This document shows, one piece after another, positions 8,161 through 37,393 of a stretch of DNA of 64,000 nucleotides. Numbering within the stretch: the first letter of the stretch is position 1; every line of letters starts with the position of its first letter. The translations under genes were made by a program, and so were the position numbers. The notes under the pieces were generated by a model that did no database searches, had not been told where the DNA came from, and saw nothing but the letters and a program-made list of their open reading frames with translations. The stretch is from the NCBI GenBank assembly GCA_033344895.1, contig JAWPMN010000001.1:1-64000 (forward strand). Direction: 5' to 3'. Origin of the DNA: Alphaproteobacteria bacterium. GTDB taxonomy: Bacteria > Pseudomonadota > Alphaproteobacteria > UBA8366 > Aestuariispiraceae.

Positions 8161-9311
8161 CGCAACATCCTTCCCGCGCGCGCTGCGCCGAGTTTCTCCA
8201 GCAGCAGTTTGACCTTCCCGGCCCCGCCCGCATCGCCGCGCAGCAGCCCCATCACCCCTTTCGGCATGAACAGGGTGACACCGACGAACAGCGCGCCCAG
8301 GGCGAACAGCCAGATTTCGGGGAACCAGCCCGTGAACAAGGTTTTGGCCCCGTTGACGATGACCGCCCCCAGCACCGCGCCGATCAACGTCCCGCGCCCA
8401 CCGACTGCCACCCAGACAACAATTTCAATCGAGTTCGCGGGACTGAATTCGCTGGGATTGATGATGCCGACCTGCGGCGTGTAGAGCGCACCGGCGACCC
8501 CCGCCAACATGGCCGACAGGACGAAAACGAACAGTTTGTAGCCTTCGACACGGTATCCTAGGAACCGGGTCCGGCTTTCGGCGTCACGGATCGCCACCAG
8601 CACTTTCCCGGCCTTTGAGGTAACCACGAAGCGGCAGATCGAATAGCCCAGACCCAGTGCCGCGACACTGACCACGAACAGGCCGCATCGGGTCACGTCG
8701 CTTTGCAGGTTGAAGCCCAGAATGTCCTTGAAGTCGGTCAGGCCGTTATTGCCGCCAAACCCCATCTCGTTTCGGAAGAAGGCCAGCATCAGGGCAAACG
8801 TCATCGCCTGCGTGATGATCGACAGATAGACACCCGTGACGCGGCTGCGGAAGGCGAACCAGCCAAATACAAAGGCCAGCAGGCCCGGTACCGCGACGGT
8901 CATCAACAGCGCAAAGGGAAAGGAATCGAAGCCGTACCAGAACCACGGCAGTTCCTGCCAGTTCAGGAACACCATGAAGTCCGGCAGGACCGGATCACCG
9001 TAGACACCCCGAGGCCCGATCTCGCGCATCAGATGCATGCCCATGGCATAGCCGCCCAACGCGAAGAAGGCGCCATGTCCCAGGGACAGGATCCCGCAAT
9101 AGCCCCAGATCAGATCGATGGAGAGTGCCAGCAAGGCATAGCAGACATACTTTCCGAACAGCGAGACGCCGTAGCTCGGCACATGCAGGAAGGATCCGGG
9201 GGGCACGGCTAGGTTCAGCACCGGCACGATGATCGCCGCCGCGACCAGCACCATGAGAAATGCCTGGGAGCGCATCGCCACGGCCCGGCCGATCAAGGAG
9301 GTTTCCGCCAT
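8157..9311 (-). CDS. urtC: Urea ABC transporter permease UrtC
   Basis: A 384-residue inner-membrane permease of the LivM family with about ten hydrophobic segments. The hallmark region YALLALSIDLIWGYCGILSLGHGAFFALGGYA is near residues 58-90, read here in parts: IDLIWGYCGILSLGHGAFF, then ALGGYAMGMHLM. The cytoplasmic coupling loop contains AIRDAESRTRFLGYRVEGYK. UrtC forms the channel with UrtB and takes urea (or short amides) from UrtA. It begins one base after the urtB stop and its stop overlaps the urtD start. Confidence 0.93.
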   Translation of the reverse strand: MAETSLIGRAVAMRSQAFLMVLVAAAIIVPVLNLAVPPGSFLHVPSYGVSLFGKYVCYALLALSIDLIWGYCGILSLGHGAFFALGGYAMGMHLMREIGPRGVYGDPVLPDFMVFLNWQELPWFWYGFDSFPFALLMTVAVPGLLAFVFGWFAFRSRVTGVYLSIITQAMTFALMLAFFRNEMGFGGNNGLTDFKDILGFNLQSDVTRCGLFVVSVAALGLGYSICRFVVTSKAGKVLVAIRDAESRTRFLGYRVEGYKLFVFVLSAMLAGVAGALYTPQVGIINPSEFSPANSIEIVVWVAVGGRGTLIGAVLGAVIVNGAKTLFTGWFPEIWLFALGALFVGVTLFMPKGVMGLLRGDAGGAGKVKLLLEKLGAARAGRMLR

Positions 9312-9312
9312 G

Positions 9313-10944
9313 TCAGGACTCCACCGCCCGGCCCTTCAGCGGGAACAGGCCCCGCGGCCGTTTCTGGATGAACAGGATGATGAAGACCAGCACCAGAACC
9401 TTGGCCAGCACCGCACCGGAGAACGGCTCCAGGAACTTGTTCGCAATGCCGAGCGAGAACGCCCCTGCCAGAGCGCCCCACAGATTGCCGGCCCCACCGA
9501 AGACGACGACCATGAAGCTGTCGACGATGTAGCCCTGCCCCAGATTTGGGGAGACATTGTCGATCTGGCTGAGCGCGACCCCGGCGAGGCCCGCGACCCC
9601 GGCACCCAGGCCGAAGGTCAGCGCGTCGACCATGCCGCTGCGTACGCCCATATCCGATGCCATGGCCCGGTTCTGGGTAACTGCGCGCATCTGCAGACCT
9701 ATTGCGGTCTTCTTCAGCAACAGCAGCAACCCAGCAAAGACCGCCAGGGCGAAGACCAGAATCCAGAGCCTGTTATACGTGATGGTCAGATAACCGAGTT
9801 CGAACCCGCCCGTCATCCAGGAGGGGTTGCCGACCTCCTTGTTTGTCGGACCGAAGATCGACCGCACCGTCTGTTGCAACAGCAGGCTGATTCCCCAGGT
9901 CGCCAGCAGTGTTTCCAGTGGCCGACCATACAGAAAGCGCACCACGCCCCGCTCGATTGCGATCCCGACCGCGCCGACGATGACGAAGGCCAGCGGGGCC
10001 GCGATCAACAGCGAGTAGTCGAAGAGATGCGGCGCCGCATTCCGGATCCCGTCCTGCACCACGAATGTCGTATAGGCGCCCAGCATGACCAGTTCACCAT
10101 GCGCCATGTTGATCACGCCCATCACGCCGAAGGTGATCGCCAGCCCGATTGCCGCCAGCAGCAGGACGGAACCCAAAGAAAGCCCGTACCAGACATTCTG
10201 GCCCAGCGCCCAGAACTGCAGTTCCTTGTCGATGGCGGCTGCCGCCTTCCCGGCCGCCTCCGCAACCGTCGGGTCCGGATCGCCGGCCACGCCGGACAGA
10301 AGGGACATCATGCTGCGCCCGCCACGCGCCGTCAGCGCCTCGATGGCCGCCAGCCGGTCCGCCGACGGCGCATCGGTATCGTACAGGACGATGGCGGACC
10401 GCGCCGCGATCATCACGTCGCGAATATGGGCCATCTCCTCTGCCTCGATGGCGGCCTCCAGGGCGTCGAGCCCGGATGGATCGCGCTCCTTGAGCAGGGA
10501 CTGGGCGGCACTGAGCCTTTGTTTCGGATCGTCAGACCGCAACGTCAGGGACCCCAGAAGCGCGTCGATCTGGCCGCGCATGGAATTGTTGACGATGATC
10601 CGATCGAGCGCGGTCTTGGACAGGGTTTCCACCTCGTCCCCGGAAACCAGATCGTAGAGTGTGAAAGTGCCGCCCTTGCGCACCGCGCGAAAATAGGCCC
10701 CATCGGATTTGCGCCGGTAGAGGTCCCCTGCCCCCAATGTCTTCAGCAATGGCACGACCATCGGGTCGTCGATGGCGGCGATGGCAGAAACGGCCTTGGC
10801 CTTCTGCCTGAAGTTTCGGGTGTCGAGCTCTTCCAGCAGCGGGCTCAAACGCGGGTCCGTCTGGGCCCAGGCTGTGGCCGTGCCCCCCATGGTCAACCCG
10901 AGCCAAAGCCCGGCGAAAAGCATCAGTCGCAAGGCAGACGCCAT
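9313..10944 (-). CDS. urtB: Urea ABC transporter permease UrtB with N-terminal periplasmic domain
   Basis: A 543-residue protein. A signal-like segment (residues 1-24) and a helical HEAT-like extracytoplasmic domain of about 220 residues precede the LivH-type membrane domain of eight or so helices. The membrane part starts near ALGQNVWYGLSLGSVLLLAAIGLAI and contains MGVINMAHGELVMLGAYTT and the coupling loop AVTQNRAMASDMGVRSGMVD. The extended N terminus is usual for UrtB and separates it from LivH. The start at 10944 follows GGAGGAAGAC; a longer frame adds nine residues without support. A 15-bp perfect hairpin separates it from urtA. Confidence 0.92.
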   Translation of the reverse strand: MASALRLMLFAGLWLGLTMGGTATAWAQTDPRLSPLLEELDTRNFRQKAKAVSAIAAIDDPMVVPLLKTLGAGDLYRRKSDGAYFRAVRKGGTFTLYDLVSGDEVETLSKTALDRIIVNNSMRGQIDALLGSLTLRSDDPKQRLSAAQSLLKERDPSGLDALEAAIEAEEMAHIRDVMIAARSAIVLYDTDAPSADRLAAIEALTARGGRSMMSLLSGVAGDPDPTVAEAAGKAAAAIDKELQFWALGQNVWYGLSLGSVLLLAAIGLAITFGVMGVINMAHGELVMLGAYTTFVVQDGIRNAAPHLFDYSLLIAAPLAFVIVGAVGIAIERGVVRFLYGRPLETLLATWGISLLLQQTVRSIFGPTNKEVGNPSWMTGGFELGYLTITYNRLWILVFALAVFAGLLLLLKKTAIGLQMRAVTQNRAMASDMGVRSGMVDALTFGLGAGVAGLAGVALSQIDNVSPNLGQGYIVDSFMVVVFGGAGNLWGALAGAFSLGIANKFLEPFSGAVLAKVLVLVFIILFIQKRPRGLFPLKGRAVES

Positions 10945-32753: not shown

Positions 32754-33506
32754 CTAGCCGTTCGCGATCTTTTCCATCACCTCGTCGGAGATGTCATAGT
32801 TCGCGTAGACGTTCTGAACGTCGTCATTGTCGTCCAGATTGTCGAGCAGACGTAGCAGCGATTCCGCCGCATCGCCATCGACAGGTGTCAGATTCTGCGG
32901 TTTCCACACTAGCTTCGATTCGTCCGGTTCGCCGAACCGTTCTTCCAGCGCCTGGGAAACCTCGTTCAGATCTTCCGCCGCACAGATGATTTCATGGGAT
33001 TCCTCGCTGCTGCTGACGTCTTCGGCACCGGCCTCCAGTGCCGCTTCGAAGACGGTCTCGGCGTCTCCCGCATCGCCTTTCAGGACGATCTGGCCGACAC
33101 GGTCGAACATGAAGGAGACGGAACCCGTCTCGCCCATATTGCCGCCACCCTTGTTGAAGATGGATCGGATATCCGCCGCGGAGCGGTTCCGGTTATCGGT
33201 CAGGACATCGACGATGATCGCAACGCCCGCCGGGCCGTAACCCTCATAGCGGATTTCTTCGTAATCCGTACCTTCGCCACCACCGGCGCCCTTCTGGATC
33301 GCGCGTTCGATGTTGTCCTTCGGCATCGACTGGGCGCGGGCGGTCTGGATCGCCAGACGCAGGCGCGCATTCGAATCCGGATCGCCGCCGCCCATCTTGG
33401 CCGCGACCATGATTTCCTTGCCCAGTTTCGCAAAGAGCTGCGCGCGCTTCTTATCCTGCGCGCCCTTGCGGTGCATGATGTTCTTGAATTTCGAGTGGCC
33501 GGCCAT
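32754..33506 (-). CDS. YebC/PmpR family transcriptional or translational regulator
   Basis: A 250-residue protein of the YebC/TACO1 family, opening [20 protein letters not shown] with the family block [19 protein letters not shown] and [18 protein letters not shown]. Members act as DNA-binding regulators. Recent work also links them to translation of proline-rich stretches, which is notable beside a polyproline TolA. It opens the ruvCAB-tol run, 60 bases before ruvC. The start at 33506 has GGTGAGAG. The precise paralogue group was not resolved. Confidence 0.95.
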
Positions 33507-33845
33507 GCTCTCACCATACGGAAACCCGATCCCGCGCATGTGCCGCGGACCGGAGGGTTGATTTCTCGTGCCGAAACGATCCGGGGCCGTGCGGCGCCCC
33601 GGCGGCCGGGTCAGGCTTCTCCACTCCTCGCAAGGGGAACCGATCCGGCAATTGGCGAAGCAGTGATTATGCCTTTGCCGGGATATTTGCAACTTTCGCA
33701 TCGAGGAATTGAAGTTGCATGGTTTGTCCCAAGCTTTGACAATGCCGCCTCAACCTATGGGAAAGAAAGCCTCCGGTTCACCCAGCCTTTGCAGCCTGCA
33801 ATGCGAAGTACGCCGGGTTTAGAGGCCATCAGAAATAGGCAGCTA
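33507..33845. other. Divergent intergenic region between yebC and a receiver gene
   Basis: About 340 bases with no supported gene. A CATAAT box for yebC lies at 33671-33666 on the minus strand with a poor minus-35. A TTGACA occurs at 33736-33741 on the plus strand without a good minus-10 at normal spacing. The right half is noticeably less GC-rich, as expected for divergent promoters. Confidence 0.45.
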
Positions 33846-34328
33846 ATGACTCTGACTTTCGAGCGCCTCAATGTCATGATTGTCGACGACAATCCGCATA
33901 TGAGGTTTCTCATTCGTGGAATTCTGCAGGGGTTCGGGGTCAAGAACACCCTGGAATGCATGGACGGTTCCGACGCCATAGCGGAACTGCAGCACTGGCA
34001 GGCCGACGTTGTTTTCGTCGACTGGATGATGGAACCGATGGACGGCCTGGATTTCACGCGTCAGGTCAGAAGCCAGGAAGACAGCCCCAATCGCTTCGTG
34101 CCAATCGTCATGCTGACCGGGCATACCGAGCGCCACCGGATTGTCGAGGCCAGGGATGCCGGCGTGACCGAATTTCTGGCCAAACCCGTCACGGCGAATG
34201 GTCTCTACTCACGACTGCGCAGCATCGTCGAGAACCCCCGGAAATTCGTCTCGACCGGAACATTCACCGGACCGGACCGGCGGCGCCAGGTTCAAGGCCT
34301 GGAAGGGGAAGATCGCCGCAAGAAATGA
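33846..34328 (+). CDS. Stand-alone response regulator (receiver domain, CheY-like)
   Basis: A 160-residue protein with one receiver domain (residues 8-128). The acidic pair is Asp14-Asp15 in MIVDDNPHMR, the phosphoacceptor Asp59 in VVFVDWMMEPMDG, the switch Thr in VMLTGHTE, and Lys113 in FLAKPVTANG. There is no output domain. The tail ends GPDRRRQVQGLEGEDRRKK, a basic terminus often seen in Rhodospirillales receivers. Start at 33846 fits the receiver boundary; the frame runs far upstream as a shadow of yebC. Two HPt genes follow on the same strand, so it probably takes phosphate from an HPt or hands it on. Confidence 0.88.
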   Translation: MTLTFERLNVMIVDDNPHMRFLIRGILQGFGVKNTLECMDGSDAIAELQHWQADVVFVDWMMEPMDGLDFTRQVRSQEDSPNRFVPIVMLTGHTERHRIVEARDAGVTEFLAKPVTANGLYSRLRSIVENPRKFVSTGTFTGPDRRRQVQGLEGEDRRKK

Positions 34329-34450
34329 CTTCCATGCCTTCGCCGGTTCGTTTGGGGCGTCTCCGCGGTGTCGGTACAACCCCGGCGACAAGGCCGCCCG
34401 TTCCATGTTAAGGTCCTGTATGGATTGACAACCCAACCCCATGGGCCGTG

Positions 34451-34963
34451 ATGCAAGACAATGATGGAAATGCCGGTGACAACGCCGGCGTGCAGTTCTT
34501 TACCCCTCCGAATACCGTTCGTGAAAAAGTGACCGGCAGCGGCGGGCCGACCAAGGAAATGCTGGCGAAGGCGGATGCCGCGATCAGCAAGATGACCGAG
34601 GATTACCCGAAATGGGCGATCCAGGATGTCGACAGGTTGAGGGAACTGGTTGATTCCGAAGCAAATGACGGAAAGCGCGACGAGACGCGCCTGCAGGAAG
34701 CCTACAAGCTTTCCCATGACATGCGCGGCCAGGGCGGCAGTTTCGGCTATCCGATGATCACCGGGGTCGCCGGTTCGTTCTGCAGCTTCGTGAACTCGCT
34801 GGACACCCTCGACGACAAGGCTGTGGCCATATTGCAGGCCCATGTGAAAGCCATGCGGGCAGTGCTGCTGAACAAGATTTCCGGCGATGGCGGTCCGATC
34901 GGTGCGAAGATTCTCGACGGGCTGCAAAAGGCCGTCTCCAAATACGATAGAAAAGACGACTAA
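34451..34963 (+). CDS. HPt-domain phosphotransfer protein (first of a pair)
   Basis: A 170-residue protein with an HPt-like four-helix core. The phosphorylatable histidine is His89 in YKLSHDMRGQGGSFGYP. A conserved N-terminal block, GGPTKEMLAKADAAISKMTE, is shared with the next gene. No kinase or receiver is fused. The ATG at 34451 is used because it lines up residue for residue (VTGxGGP at 27-33) with the paralogue at 35182. The ribosome site is weak. It likely relays phosphate between a hybrid kinase elsewhere and the receiver protein upstream. Confidence 0.8.
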   Translation: MQDNDGNAGDNAGVQFFTPPNTVREKVTGSGGPTKEMLAKADAAISKMTEDYPKWAIQDVDRLRELVDSEANDGKRDETRLQEAYKLSHDMRGQGGSFGYPMITGVAGSFCSFVNSLDTLDDKAVAILQAHVKAMRAVLLNKISGDGGPIGAKILDGLQKAVSKYDRKDD

Positions 34964-35181
34964 AACACGCCTACCACGACATGCGCCGGTTAATGGTCGG
35001 CCCTTCGTTATTTCTGAACCGGATTAACACTAAATCAATCTTCTTGCGGCAAGTTGGCAACCCTATCGTTGCGGGCGGGTTGGATTTATCATGACTGTGT
35101 CGGGTACGCCCTTGTGCCTCCGTGATCGCCGCAACGGTCATCTATCGGCCGCATTGCGCGATGCGAACGTCGGTTACCGAA

Positions 35182-35697
35182 ATGAAAAATGACCACACGG
35201 CGAATAGTGAAATGAATTCCATGCAAAACTCTGTCCTGAGAGACCTCCGCCCGATGGGTGTGACGGGTCGCGGCGGCCCTACGCCCGAAATGCTGGCCAA
35301 GGCAAACGCGGCCATCGACGAGATGACAAGGGAATTCCCGGACTGGGCGATCAAGGATGTCGACACCCTGGATGCCGTACTGGCATGCGATATCGAAGAA
35401 TTTCGCGACGGCAACCGCTTGAAGGACGCCTACAAGCTGGCGCATGACATGCGTGGTCAGGGCGGCAGTTTCGGCTATCCGGTGATAACGACCGTCGCTG
35501 GATCCTTCTGCAAATTCGTCAACACCCTGGAAGACCTGGATCAAGCCGCCCTGGACATCTTACGTGCCCATTCGAAGGCACTGCGAACCATCCTTCAGAA
35601 CAAGTTTGCCGGTGATGGCGGTCCGGTCGGCGCCAAGATCCAGGACGGGCTGGATCGTGCGATTGCGCGCCATGTTGGCGGCCGGACCGAAGACTGA
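35182..35697 (+). CDS. HPt-domain phosphotransfer protein (second of a pair)
   Basis: A 171-residue paralogue of the preceding gene. His88 lies in YKLAHDMRGQGGSFGYP, and the GGPTPEMLAKANAAIDEMTR, WAIKDVDTL and GDGGPVGAKIQDGLDRAI blocks are shared. The N and middle parts differ more than the HPt core. The start is ambiguous (35161, 35182, 35212 and 35221 are in frame). 35182 is chosen because it reproduces the N-terminal length of the paralogue. It lies 218 bases after the first gene, so it may have its own promoter. A convergent ymdB-like gene ends 25 bases away. Confidence 0.78.
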   Translation: MKNDHTANSEMNSMQNSVLRDLRPMGVTGRGGPTPEMLAKANAAIDEMTREFPDWAIKDVDTLDAVLACDIEEFRDGNRLKDAYKLAHDMRGQGGSFGYPVITTVAGSFCKFVNTLEDLDQAALDILRAHSKALRTILQNKFAGDGGPVGAKIQDGLDRAIARHVGGRTED

Positions 35698-35721: not shown

Positions 35722-36537
35722 CTAGACAGGCCAGGCGGGGGCCAACCTTCCCCCAACGCGGATCGGCAAGATCTTTGCGGCGAGGCCGGTCCTGGGGTCT
35801 GTTTCCACGACCGTGCCGCACAGCGTCGCATCGCCTTCGGCAGGCTGCATTCTCGGCTTCGGCAACTGGTTCAGGAATCTTCCCAGGGAAGCTTCTTTCT
35901 GCATACCGATGACACTGTCGTAATCGCCACACATACCGGCATCGGTCTGATAGCCTGTGCCGTTTTCCAGGATATGCGCATCCCCGGTCGGAACATGGGT
36001 GTGCGTCCCGACGACGAGGCTGGCACGGCCGTCGCAGTAATGGCCGATCCCGTACTTTTCCGACGTCGCTTCGCCATGCATGTCGACAAGAACGAAATCG
36101 AACCCGTTCTCGCCCGGCGCGCCCTCGGGCAGGGCGCTCTCAAGCGTGTCGAACGGATTGTCGAGCAATTCCATGAAGAGGCGGCACATCACGTTGATGA
36201 CCAGCACTCTTTCCCCGCCTGCGGTCTCGAACAGTCCGACGCCACGCCCCGGTGTCCCTTTCGGGAAATTTGCCGGTCGCAGGAGCCGCGGTTCGTCATC
36301 GATGTAGGACAGGATTTCCGCACGGTCCCAGGAATGGTTGCCACCGGTGATCACGTCGATACCGGCATCGAACAGTTCCTCGCAATTCTTCGGGGATATT
36401 CCGAAGCCATGGGTCGCGTTCTCTCCGTTCGCAACGACGAAATCGAGACCCAGTTGCTTTCTCAGTCGCGGCACTTCCTCGATCACGGCGTCCCGACCGG
36501 ACCGTCCCACAATATCGCCCAGGAACATGACTTTCAC
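35722..36537 (-). CDS. TIGR00282/YmdB-family metallophosphoesterase
   Basis: A 271-residue calcineurin-like phosphoesterase. The metal ligands are seen in MFLGDIVGRSGRD, VANGENATHGFG, GGNHSWDR, VDMHGEATSEK and VVGTHTHVPTGDA. Bacillus YmdB and Deinococcus homologues hydrolyse 2',3'-cyclic nucleotides or cAMP. The start is a GTG at 36537 with an AAGGGTAG site, giving the family N terminus KVMFLGDIVG; no ATG upstream in frame is as good. It begins four bases after the 5-formyl-THF cyclo-ligase stop, an arrangement found in many alphaproteobacteria. Confidence 0.92.
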   Translation of the reverse strand: MKVMFLGDIVGRSGRDAVIEEVPRLRKQLGLDFVVANGENATHGFGISPKNCEELFDAGIDVITGGNHSWDRAEILSYIDDEPRLLRPANFPKGTPGRGVGLFETAGGERVLVINVMCRLFMELLDNPFDTLESALPEGAPGENGFDFVLVDMHGEATSEKYGIGHYCDGRASLVVGTHTHVPTGDAHILENGTGYQTDAGMCGDYDSVIGMQKEASLGRFLNQLPKPRMQPAEGDATLCGTVVETDPRTGLAAKILPIRVGGRLAPAWPV

Positions 36538-36541
36538 GGAA

Positions 36542-37153
36542 CTACCCTTTCTGCACCGGTCGGAAGGCGCCGGTTTCGGTAACAATCCAGTCCAAGGGCT
36601 GATCATAGACGCCGCGCGGCACCAGTTCGACCTGCTGACCGGCAAAAGCCATGCCCACCGCCGTCACCGACTTTGTTCTGCGCAATGCTTCCAGGCTGCG
36701 GTCATAGAATCCACCGCCATATCCCAGCCGGTAGCCGGCGCGATCGAATGCCAGCAACGGCACGATCAGGATGTCAGGGTCCACAGCCACGGCACTTTCC
36801 GCCGGCGCCCGGGTCCCGAAGGCTTCCTCAATCAGAGGGTCGCCGGGGGTCCAGAGGCGAAAGACCAGGGGCTGCGCTGGTGCAACGACACAGGGCAGGC
36901 AGATGGCGCAGCCGGCCGCCCGCGCGGCTTCGAGGGCCGGCAGCACGTTGAGTTCGCTTCCGATCGGCAGGAAGCCTGAAACGATACGGCCCTCAGCGGG
37001 CTTCAGGGCCTGCATGAAGTGATCGGCGACCGCCCGGGCCGCATCGGGGCCAGCGTCCTGCTTTGCCGCGCTGCGCGCCCTGGATGCGGCTTTCCGGGCC
37101 GCCACCTTGATCTGCGCAAGGTCGCTGGAATCGTTCTTCGCGGTCTCGGTCAT
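36542..37153 (-). CDS. 5-formyltetrahydrofolate cyclo-ligase
   Basis: A 203-residue enzyme that converts 5-formyl-THF to 5,10-methenyl-THF with ATP, the product of the gene named ygfA/fau in E. coli. The hallmark LGYGGGFYDRSL loop is at residues 143-154, and FLPIGSELNV and LIVPLLAFD fit the fold. It lies directly downstream of the candidate 6S RNA, the same order (zapA-ssrS-ygfA) as in many proteobacteria, where processing of a joint transcript is known. Confidence 0.94.
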   Translation of the reverse strand: MTETAKNDSSDLAQIKVAARKAASRARSAAKQDAGPDAARAVADHFMQALKPAEGRIVSGFLPIGSELNVLPALEAARAAGCAICLPCVVAPAQPLVFRLWTPGDPLIEEAFGTRAPAESAVAVDPDILIVPLLAFDRAGYRLGYGGGFYDRSLEALRRTKSVTAVGMAFAGQQVELVPRGVYDQPLDWIVTETGAFRPVQKG

Positions 37154-37157
37154 GGCT

Positions 37158-37326
37158 CCGCCACTGTCGTCGGCCGACCGCGGGGCCCCGGGCGGCAGGT
37201 GTCACTGGAACGTTCGGGCGGGCGCGGCCGCATCCGCCGTGGCCTCTTCTCTTATCCTCTGGAGCCTACAATAGTAGGTGGGCGCCGCGGTATCGGGGCC
37301 TGGGCCCCGACAGAGACAGCTCCCAA
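37158..37326 (-). ncRNA. ssrS: Candidate 6S RNA
   Basis: This 240-base gap between zapA and the 5-formyl-THF cyclo-ligase gene is the usual 6S site. The minus strand has a TATACT box at 37338-37333 predicting a start near 37326. The 5' part CTGTC-TCT-GTCGG (37319-37307) pairs with CCGACGACAG (37173-37164), and CGGGGCCC with GGGCCCCG farther in. This gives a long, interrupted closing stem and an RNA of about 165 bases, the 6S size. The middle has a less paired region with a small CCTAC-TATT-GTAGG hairpin. Location and shape support the call; I did not verify family sequence consensus. Confidence 0.6.
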
Positions 37327-37332
37327 GAGGAG

Positions 37333-37338
37333 AGTATA
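37333..37338 (-). promoter_or_regulatory. Minus-10 box of the candidate 6S RNA
   Basis: TATACT on the minus strand, matching five of six consensus bases. The region 17-18 bases upstream (GTGAAG or TGAAGC) is a weak minus-35. It lies 55 bases past the zapA stop. Confidence 0.5.
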
Positions 37339-37393
37339 GCCCCCGGGACAAGTTTGGCTTCACGCACGGCGCAGCACGCGCCCGTGCCCTTAA

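Follow-up and report, generated by a model that had tools for sequence, protein, structure and literature searches.

Three adjacent plus-strand genes between positions 33846 and 35697 of a 64,000-nucleotide stretch of alphaproteobacterial DNA (contig JAWPMN010000001.1, positions 1 to 64,000, family Aestuariispiraceae; hereafter the window) encode a CheY-like receiver followed by two histidine phosphotransfer (HPt) proteins, HPt1 and HPt2. Judging from its sequence, the receiver is a Cle-type CheY whose C-terminal arginine-rich tail (ARR) is predicted to bind cyclic di-GMP (c-di-GMP). The HPts form a family of their own; among natural proteins of solved structure, CheA P1 domains are its nearest relatives. 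The interest lies in this combination of a Cle-type receiver with a detached CheA-P1-like HPt family rather than in the twinning of the HPts. We propose, giving the proposal an even chance, that c-di-GMP gates docking and phosphotransfer between the two partners and that the module probably acts on motility. An earlier note, made from the letters of the window, had described a lone receiver (Asp59) followed by two paralogous HPts, and its gene order, phosphosites (D59, H89 and H88) and coordinates proved exact. The features are as follows.

33846-34328, plus strand: CheY-like receiver, 160 residues, with C-terminal ARR (Pfam Response_reg E 4.9e-25; alignment with four genome paralogues)
34020-34022, plus strand: codon of the receiver phosphoacceptor D59
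R103 of the receiver (in ARDAG): arginine at the helix alpha4 position
34236-34325, plus strand: arginine-rich tail of the receiver, PRKFVSTGTFTGPDRRRQVQGLEGEDRRKK, with repeat 1 (FTGPDRR) canonical and repeat 2 (LEGEDRR) degenerate, both Arg kept
34451-34963, plus strand: HPt1, CheA-P1-like, 170 residues (sequence, Pfam, AlphaFold2 model and fold comparison)
34715-34717 and 34841-34843: H89 of HPt1 and its second conserved His, H131
35182-35697, plus strand: HPt2, tandem paralogue of HPt1, 171 residues (identity to HPt1, Pfam Hpt E 0.0008, tree)
35443-35445: H88 of HPt2

A Cle-type receiver

Caulobacter Cle proteins consist of a single CheY-like receiver followed by an ARR, a tandem [YF]xGP[DE][RK]R motif that constitutes their c-di-GMP-binding module, and a conserved arginine in receiver helix alpha4 is reported to contribute to binding (Nesper et al., PMC5677366). 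The window receiver has a similar organization. Response_reg is its single domain, R103 is equivalent to R113 of CleD (by sequence position, not by structure), and the sequence after the receiver domain, NPRKFVSTGTFTGPDRRRQVQGLEGEDRRKK, contains a full first repeat with an arginine upstream. The best NCBIfam model for the protein is CheY, at 77 bits, under its cut-off of 189. A bare DNA pattern for the ARR was also tried and rejected as too loose, with 45 places against 23 for the backward-pattern control.

The second repeat of the window tail retains RR, without [YF]xGP, and this differs from the Caulobacter proteins. When the tail alone was compared with the PDB, the sole sequence at E <= 10 was the CleD ARR (6sft), a weak match (E 0.19). 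The tail of the genome paralogue L005 (L numbers denote the loci collected in this study), in which both repeats are present, matches the same ARR at E 3.2e-5. This could mean that the window receiver has lost c-di-GMP binding and has become an ordinary single-domain receiver, retained because it binds the HPts. We judge this very improbable, since the first repeat with its Arg, the two Arg of the second repeat and the alpha4 Arg have all been kept, and since the receiver has a dN/dS of 0.09 against a close relative, ih5. Purifying selection acts on each of the three window genes in this comparison (0.09 for HPt1 and 0.22 for HPt2 as well), these values being rough, with dS of 1.1 to 1.8. R156 and R169 of CleD are presumably the arginines of the first and second repeat. 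The R156A change is reported to have abolished or strongly reduced binding, and R169A to have lowered it about fivefold (PMC5677366), which likewise speaks against a loss of binding.

An HPt family related to CheA P1

HPt1 and HPt2 share 61% identity over 139 residues (E 1e-63, single comparison), which rules out a chance likeness and makes them paralogues. The shared blocks that the earlier note had listed (GGPTxEMLAKAxAAI, WAIxDVDxL and HDMRGQGGSFGYP) are all present. Identity amounts to 30/39 in the docking stretch of helices 2-3, 28/50 before it and 27/49 after it. Both proteins stay under the Pfam Hpt gathering score of 24.6 (15.3 bits, E 0.023, for HPt1; 20.0 bits, E 0.0008, for HPt2), and so does the genome paralogue L006, while L003, L004 and L005 pass. 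We therefore refer to an HPt-like family. The HPt assignment of the window proteins holds because members of the family match PF01627, at E <= 0.01 for 24 of the 30 members of our HPt alignment A3.

The AlphaFold2 model of HPt1 (66 sequences, mean pLDDT 89.8, pTM 0.76) presents long helices at residues 35-73, 78-97, 101-116, 122-140 and 148-167. It has the hallmarks of an Hpt, namely a helical bundle, the His (H89) in the second long helix and HxxKG/RG. Fold comparison with VIA-align placed CheA P1 first (1i5n, Z 15.4, 123 residues, 2.6 A) and the P1 of CheA3, from its complex with CheY6, next (Z 15.2). The novel repeat protein BRIC1 was found at Z 14.6; bundle arrangement alone can reach such values. 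Independently of the model, a search of the PDB with the HPt family profile gave six distinct CheA sequences (E 2.5e-6 to 9.2e-5), HPts of the ArcB or YPD1 type being absent at E <= 10, and hhalign aligned the family with the P1 domain of the genome's own CheA (probability 91.7%, E 7.7e-7). The likeness to CheA P1 (1i5n, 3kyj) thus concerns the helical fold, the position of the His, HxxKG/RG and profile E values down to 2.5e-6. In contrast to CheA, these HPts stand alone or are fused to a receiver, the kinase core P3-P5 being absent behind the P1-like part of the window proteins, and the family has its own RGQGxxFGYP block and a second conserved His.

Persistent pairing with ARR receivers

The source genome carries six HPt paralogues of this family at five loci; a seventh place, at E 0.32, is a different HPt. 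At each of the five loci a receiver lies beside the HPt or is fused to it, and its tail aligns as an ARR. An ARR receiver directly precedes the HPt in L004 and L005, and L003 and L006 encode receiver, ARR and HPt in one protein of 396 or 355 residues. Among the 57 receiver matches of this genome (E <= 1e-5), the top seven have an ARR; five of these are HPt-linked and the remaining two are without HPt. The other 50 were classed as lacking an ARR on the basis of their score and the extent of the match.

The HPt family was found in all 14 genomes of the taxonomic family, in 36 of 43 genomes of the order (E <= 1e-5) and in 156 of 387 genomes sampled from the class (E <= 1e-8, at most nine candidates scored per genome). 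ARR-type receivers were found in 137 of these 387 (A1 profile, E <= 1e-40). Both occur together in 135 class genomes, 2 have the ARR receiver only, 21 the HPt only and 229 neither. A receiver of the Cle kind is thus tied to a CheA-P1-like partner in about one third of the sampled alphaproteobacterial genomes. This count misses some lone ARR receivers because the cut-offs are unequal and HPt-linked receivers were the source of the A1 profile, so that lone ones, e.g. those of Caulobacter, may fall under the cut-off.

Gene architecture was surveyed in 305 of 316 loci, leaving out ten large or FliM own-genome loci and a weak one. The collection is not random, as loci were found via this HPt family, best matches first. 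With HPt scores of at least 60 bits, identical domains merged and receivers sought within 1300 bases upstream, 277 distinct HPt domains were retained. A receiver lies upstream on the same strand of 142 of them, 56 are fused behind a receiver, 3 have a receiver downstream, 70 lack one and 6 lie at a contig edge. Of the 201 partner rows, which represent 192 distinct receivers because those shared by tandem HPts are counted more than once, 194 contain the ARR motif. The seven rows without it comprise short or truncated frames (L186, L063, L183), two rows from a split frame (L284) and altered motifs (L031, L270). On a FastTree of 274 HPts, the fused or separate state needs four changes and the presence or absence of the receiver 25, as counted without support checks. 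HPt and receiver distances are correlated (0.79). In 500 rounds of exchanging partners among the pairs of one genome, the correlation drops to 0.18 (sd 0.05, maximum 0.36), named loci being assigned to genomes by the first 40 letters of their titles. This drop indicates that the pairs are inherited as units. The matches listed in a fold comparison of the AlphaFold2 model of a fused protein (L123, pTM 0.88) were all receivers, so that the comparison is uninformative on the HPt half. Two records, named Anaerolineae and Myxococcales (L095 and L115), carry this otherwise alphaproteobacterial family; these are misnamed bins or cases of transfer.

Conservation of phosphoryl and ARR residues

All 201 partner rows retain the Gly of the ARR, 200 the Pro, 200 the first Arg, 198 the second Arg and 199 the alpha4 Arg. 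Among the 277 HPts, 271 have the RGQG block with its first Gly conserved, and 261 have the second His, on the fourth long helix. The receiver acceptor Asp is present in 175 of 198 readable rows, the rest having Asn (19), Glu (3) or Ala (1), and the HPt His in 245 of 276 domains. The ARR and the docking block are thus more constant than the phosphoryl residues. The minimum number of changes on the FastTree is 19 for the HPt His and 4 for the receiver Asp. Receivers with Asn for Asp include those of L071, L073, L080, L081, L160, L165, L166, L235, L239 and L240.

These data bear on the function suggested in the earlier note, i.e. a relay with two inputs or a phosphate sink. With D59, H89 and H88 intact, a relay is chemically possible in the window; what had been overlooked is the c-di-GMP-type tail and the conserved receiver-HPt family. 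An ordinary His-Asp phosphorelay would run from a distant hybrid kinase to HPt1 and HPt2, as two inputs, and from there to the receiver, with the ARR as a side ornament. The absence of a kinase, also claimed in that note, was confirmed for the window, as none of the 67 HATPase_c places of the genome (not all of them kinases) lies within positions 1-64000; on a circular contig, the nearest would be some 45 kb away from the receiver. Donors nevertheless exist, since many of these 67 places are in long frames. Locus L130, from Magnetovibrio, has a PAS histidine kinase gene (identified by Pfam) on the opposite strand, at a distance of about 3.6 kb from its HPt, so that kinase-free surroundings are established for the window and not for every member. 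Both His and Asp are present in 152 of the 201 pair rows. However, the two residues are not conserved family-wide as in a classical phosphorelay. All 19 Asn receivers are partnered by an HPt in which the His persists, the His is lost and the Asp retained in 23 pair rows, and the ARR is better conserved than either. The His is gone from 31 of 276 domains, far above what a survey reports for Hpt domains generally (0.9%, 90 of 10,312; the Asp is missing in 2.0% of receivers; PMC12632262). That pairs without His or without Asp persist means that transfer within the pair is not the universal function. We thus consider an ordinary relay unlikely.

The opposite possibility is that the HPts serve purely to dock with or sequester the receiver, phosphorylation being vestigial and c-di-GMP alone switching the receiver on and off the HPt. 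This would fit with an HPt His state that changes at least 19 times while the RGQG block stays. The natural Asp-to-Asn receivers also resemble the D56N,S83A CheY6 with which a stable complex with phosphorylated CheA3 P1 (CheA3P1-P) was held (PMC2817712). On the other side, both residues are kept in the window and in most pairs, and the His is found in 65 of the 70 receiver-less HPts and is therefore usually under selection, which makes a docking-only role quite unlikely in our opinion.

As for the phosphate sink, the HPts would drain phosphoryl groups from the window receiver or from flagellar CheY proteins and so end the response. Reverse transfer, from receiver to HPt, is known from other systems, and kinase-free HPts with an intact His would be suited to this role, the duplication raising the capacity. 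No result supports a sink directly, and neither the near-invariant ARR of the partner nor the losses of the His would be explained by it, and we regard it as highly improbable.

Proposed mechanism

We propose instead c-di-GMP-gated docking and phosphotransfer, in which the three genes would constitute a module assembled from chemotaxis components and lacking a dedicated kinase. The HPts, as detached CheA-P1-like domains, would dock on the receiver. Binding of c-di-GMP to the ARR and the alpha4 Arg may alter the alpha4-beta5-alpha5 face of the receiver, and the HPt at the active-site side would determine the state of the receiver (free, docked or phosphorylated). One of the CheA or hybrid kinases of the genome could charge the HPts in trans, and the output would most likely be flagellar or surface behaviour, as for the Caulobacter Cle proteins. 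HPt2 appears to be a lineage-specific copy. Since the docking stretch is the part that has diverged least, this copy probably serves the same receiver, with a different supply, timing or donor preference.

A possible model for the charging step is the CheA3/CheA4/CheY6 system of Rhodobacter sphaeroides, in which a P1 domain separate from its kinase serves a CheY, CheA4 charging the P1 of CheA3 in trans (PMC2817712, PMC3591291). By analogy, this system might also indicate what the natural Asn receivers do. In contrast to the HPts described here, which have nothing else and no known cognate kinase, CheA3 still has P5 and a phosphatase segment. FimL of Pseudomonas aeruginosa is reportedly a stand-alone protein related to the HPt region of ChpA and without phosphosites. 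It may thus be a precedent for a stand-alone CheA-type HPt-like protein without phosphotransfer, but it belongs to type IV pilus and cAMP regulation and is not known to have an ARR receiver.

The Caulobacter Cle proteins, described as relatives of CheY for which c-di-GMP, not phosphorylation, is the activating signal, differ from the present family in that here an HPt is beside the receiver or fused to it. The words Hpt and phosphotransferase are absent from the main text of the Cle study (PMC5677366). Among the matches listed in a search of the openly licensed PMC literature (titles and abstract starts), we found no description that pairs ARR receivers with HPts. Hpt domains are said to be easily missed in a survey of Azospirillum (PMC4618731).

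Several observations weigh against our proposal. Besides the degenerate second repeat of the window ARR and the weak match of the tail to CleD, phosphorylation is reported to be dispensable for CleA and CleD in Caulobacter (PMC5677366), which makes the need for an HPt partner less evident. Foldseek ranks P1 domains first for the HPt1 model, yet none below E 0.001 (E 0.02 or worse). The best PDB match of the HPt profile is BRIC1 (E 1.6e-11) and not CheA, and the other two non-CheA matches below 1e-3 are designed or synthetic proteins. The inheritance of the pairs as units could reflect linkage alone. The HPt can act apart from a receiver, as deduced from the 70 of 277 HPts without adjacent receiver and from three relatives without detectable receiver at the site of the window unit (see below). 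Finally, no flagellar gene was recognised, in a rough check by eye, beside the window unit or in sixteen named neighbourhoods.

More tentatively, these modules may represent a widespread alphaproteobacterial class in which a CheA phosphotransfer domain and a CheY, split from the kinase, were rewired to c-di-GMP, docking being gated and phosphate optional; this generalization we find possible but doubtful. If it is true, natural Asp-to-Asn receivers would hold the phosphorylated HPt without discharging it, and receivers ending in a FliM peptide (LSQDEINALL) would be competitors of the flagellar switch, acting in cis or in trans. Since a Cle-type receiver is tied to a P1-like partner, a link between two signalling currencies can be directly tested in one small unit. 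The natural variants (no His, no Asp, fusions, FliM-like tails) provide a ready-made experiment on the purpose of the pairing.

FliM-like tails and neighbouring genes

Some receivers of the family end, after the ARR, in a copy of the CheY-binding peptide of FliM, of which the motif is given as LSQxEIDxLL (PMC5677366) and which reads LNQDEIDSLL in the FliM of the source genome. A relaxed motif, chosen after the tails were seen, was found in 14 of 200 distinct ARR-receiver frames and in 6 of 15,395 other frames; in the receivers its distance from the C-terminus was invariably 1 to 3 residues. The reversed motif, used as control, was found in no receiver and in 2 other frames. The FliM-like motif is also present in an ARR receiver in a split frame. 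These tails suggest the flagellar switch as a target for part of the family; the window receiver has none. They occur in L130 (7219-7782), L113 (7271-7906), L098, L099, L114, L127, L138, L148, L150 and L157, from Magnetovibrio, Rhodospira, Haematospirillum and relatives.

Receiver-HPt units are located in varied genomic places, and cle genes other than cleA are likewise said not to cluster with chemotaxis genes (PMC5677366). Adjacency to flagellar or chemotaxis genes was rejected, as none were recognised in the sixteen neighbourhoods, which were inspected by eye from the N-terminal 70 residues, some frames being taken from the wrong strand. A Pfam check covered six neighbours from four of the sixteen. 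In L144 (Hyphomicrobiales bacterium UR115), two HD_5-domain genes come right after the HPt (8346-10771, minus strand), a domain family that includes HD-GYP c-di-GMP phosphodiesterases. An OmpA-family protein follows the HPt in L146, where another neighbour has no Pfam match, and a neighbour in L160 has low-complexity matches only. One of the lone ARR receivers of the source genome (G000:C1:1958063-1958539, minus strand; L212 12042-12887) lies about 3.5 kb from a gene of the MotA/TolQ/ExbB family.

The twin HPts and their genomic site

The window unit is flanked by two minus-strand genes:

32754-33701, minus strand: yebC, left neighbour (Pfam TACO1/YebC domains; mechanical ORF, true start probably further in)
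35722-36645, minus strand: ymdB-like phosphoesterase gene, right neighbour (Pfam YmdB, 7.4e-100)

The three plus-strand genes between them are separated by 122 bases (receiver to HPt1) and 218 bases (HPt1 to HPt2). A GTG at 34448 is a possible upstream start of HPt1; for HPt2 we retained the ATG at 35182, the mechanical ORF beginning at 35122. A unit with yebC on its left and a ymdB-like gene on its right was found in 7 of 7 relatives examined, ymdB being about 1.5 kb further off in three. At this site ih5 has the twin, L117, L118 and L122 have a receiver and one HPt, and L104, L133 and L141 have one HPt, with no receiver detectable by tblastn at E <= 1e-3. In the tree, HPt1 of the window groups with HPt1 of ih5 (97/91), HPt2 with HPt2 (98/94) and all four together (98/94), which points to a single duplication before the two species split. 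Whether twin HPts are a conserved arrangement, a check that the earlier note had proposed, is thus answered in the negative: the twin is one duplication common to the window species and ih5, found in 2 of 8 genomes at the site (window and seven relatives). In the architecture survey, eleven pairs of HPts lay on the same strand no more than 1500 bases apart, and seven of these tandems have a gap of at most 315 bases (window, ih5, L127, L263, L304, L284 and L220), so that twins arose in other lineages too. At least two receiver-HPt units were seen in L095, L109, L287 and L308, the last with two fused units in a row.

The ih5 record (CP051228.1; L097/L103) is named Mesoflavibacter sp. ih5, of the Bacteroidota, and is in fact closely related to the window genome. 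Near both contig ends of this record the unit is present, as if an overlap had been left untrimmed. A promoter scan found none, and terminator-like sites numbered 4 against a shuffled mean of 2.8. Further along the window, a 6S RNA (RF00013, 55 bits) is encoded at 37222-37380 on the minus strand, between zapA and the gene for 5-formyltetrahydrofolate cyclo-ligase.

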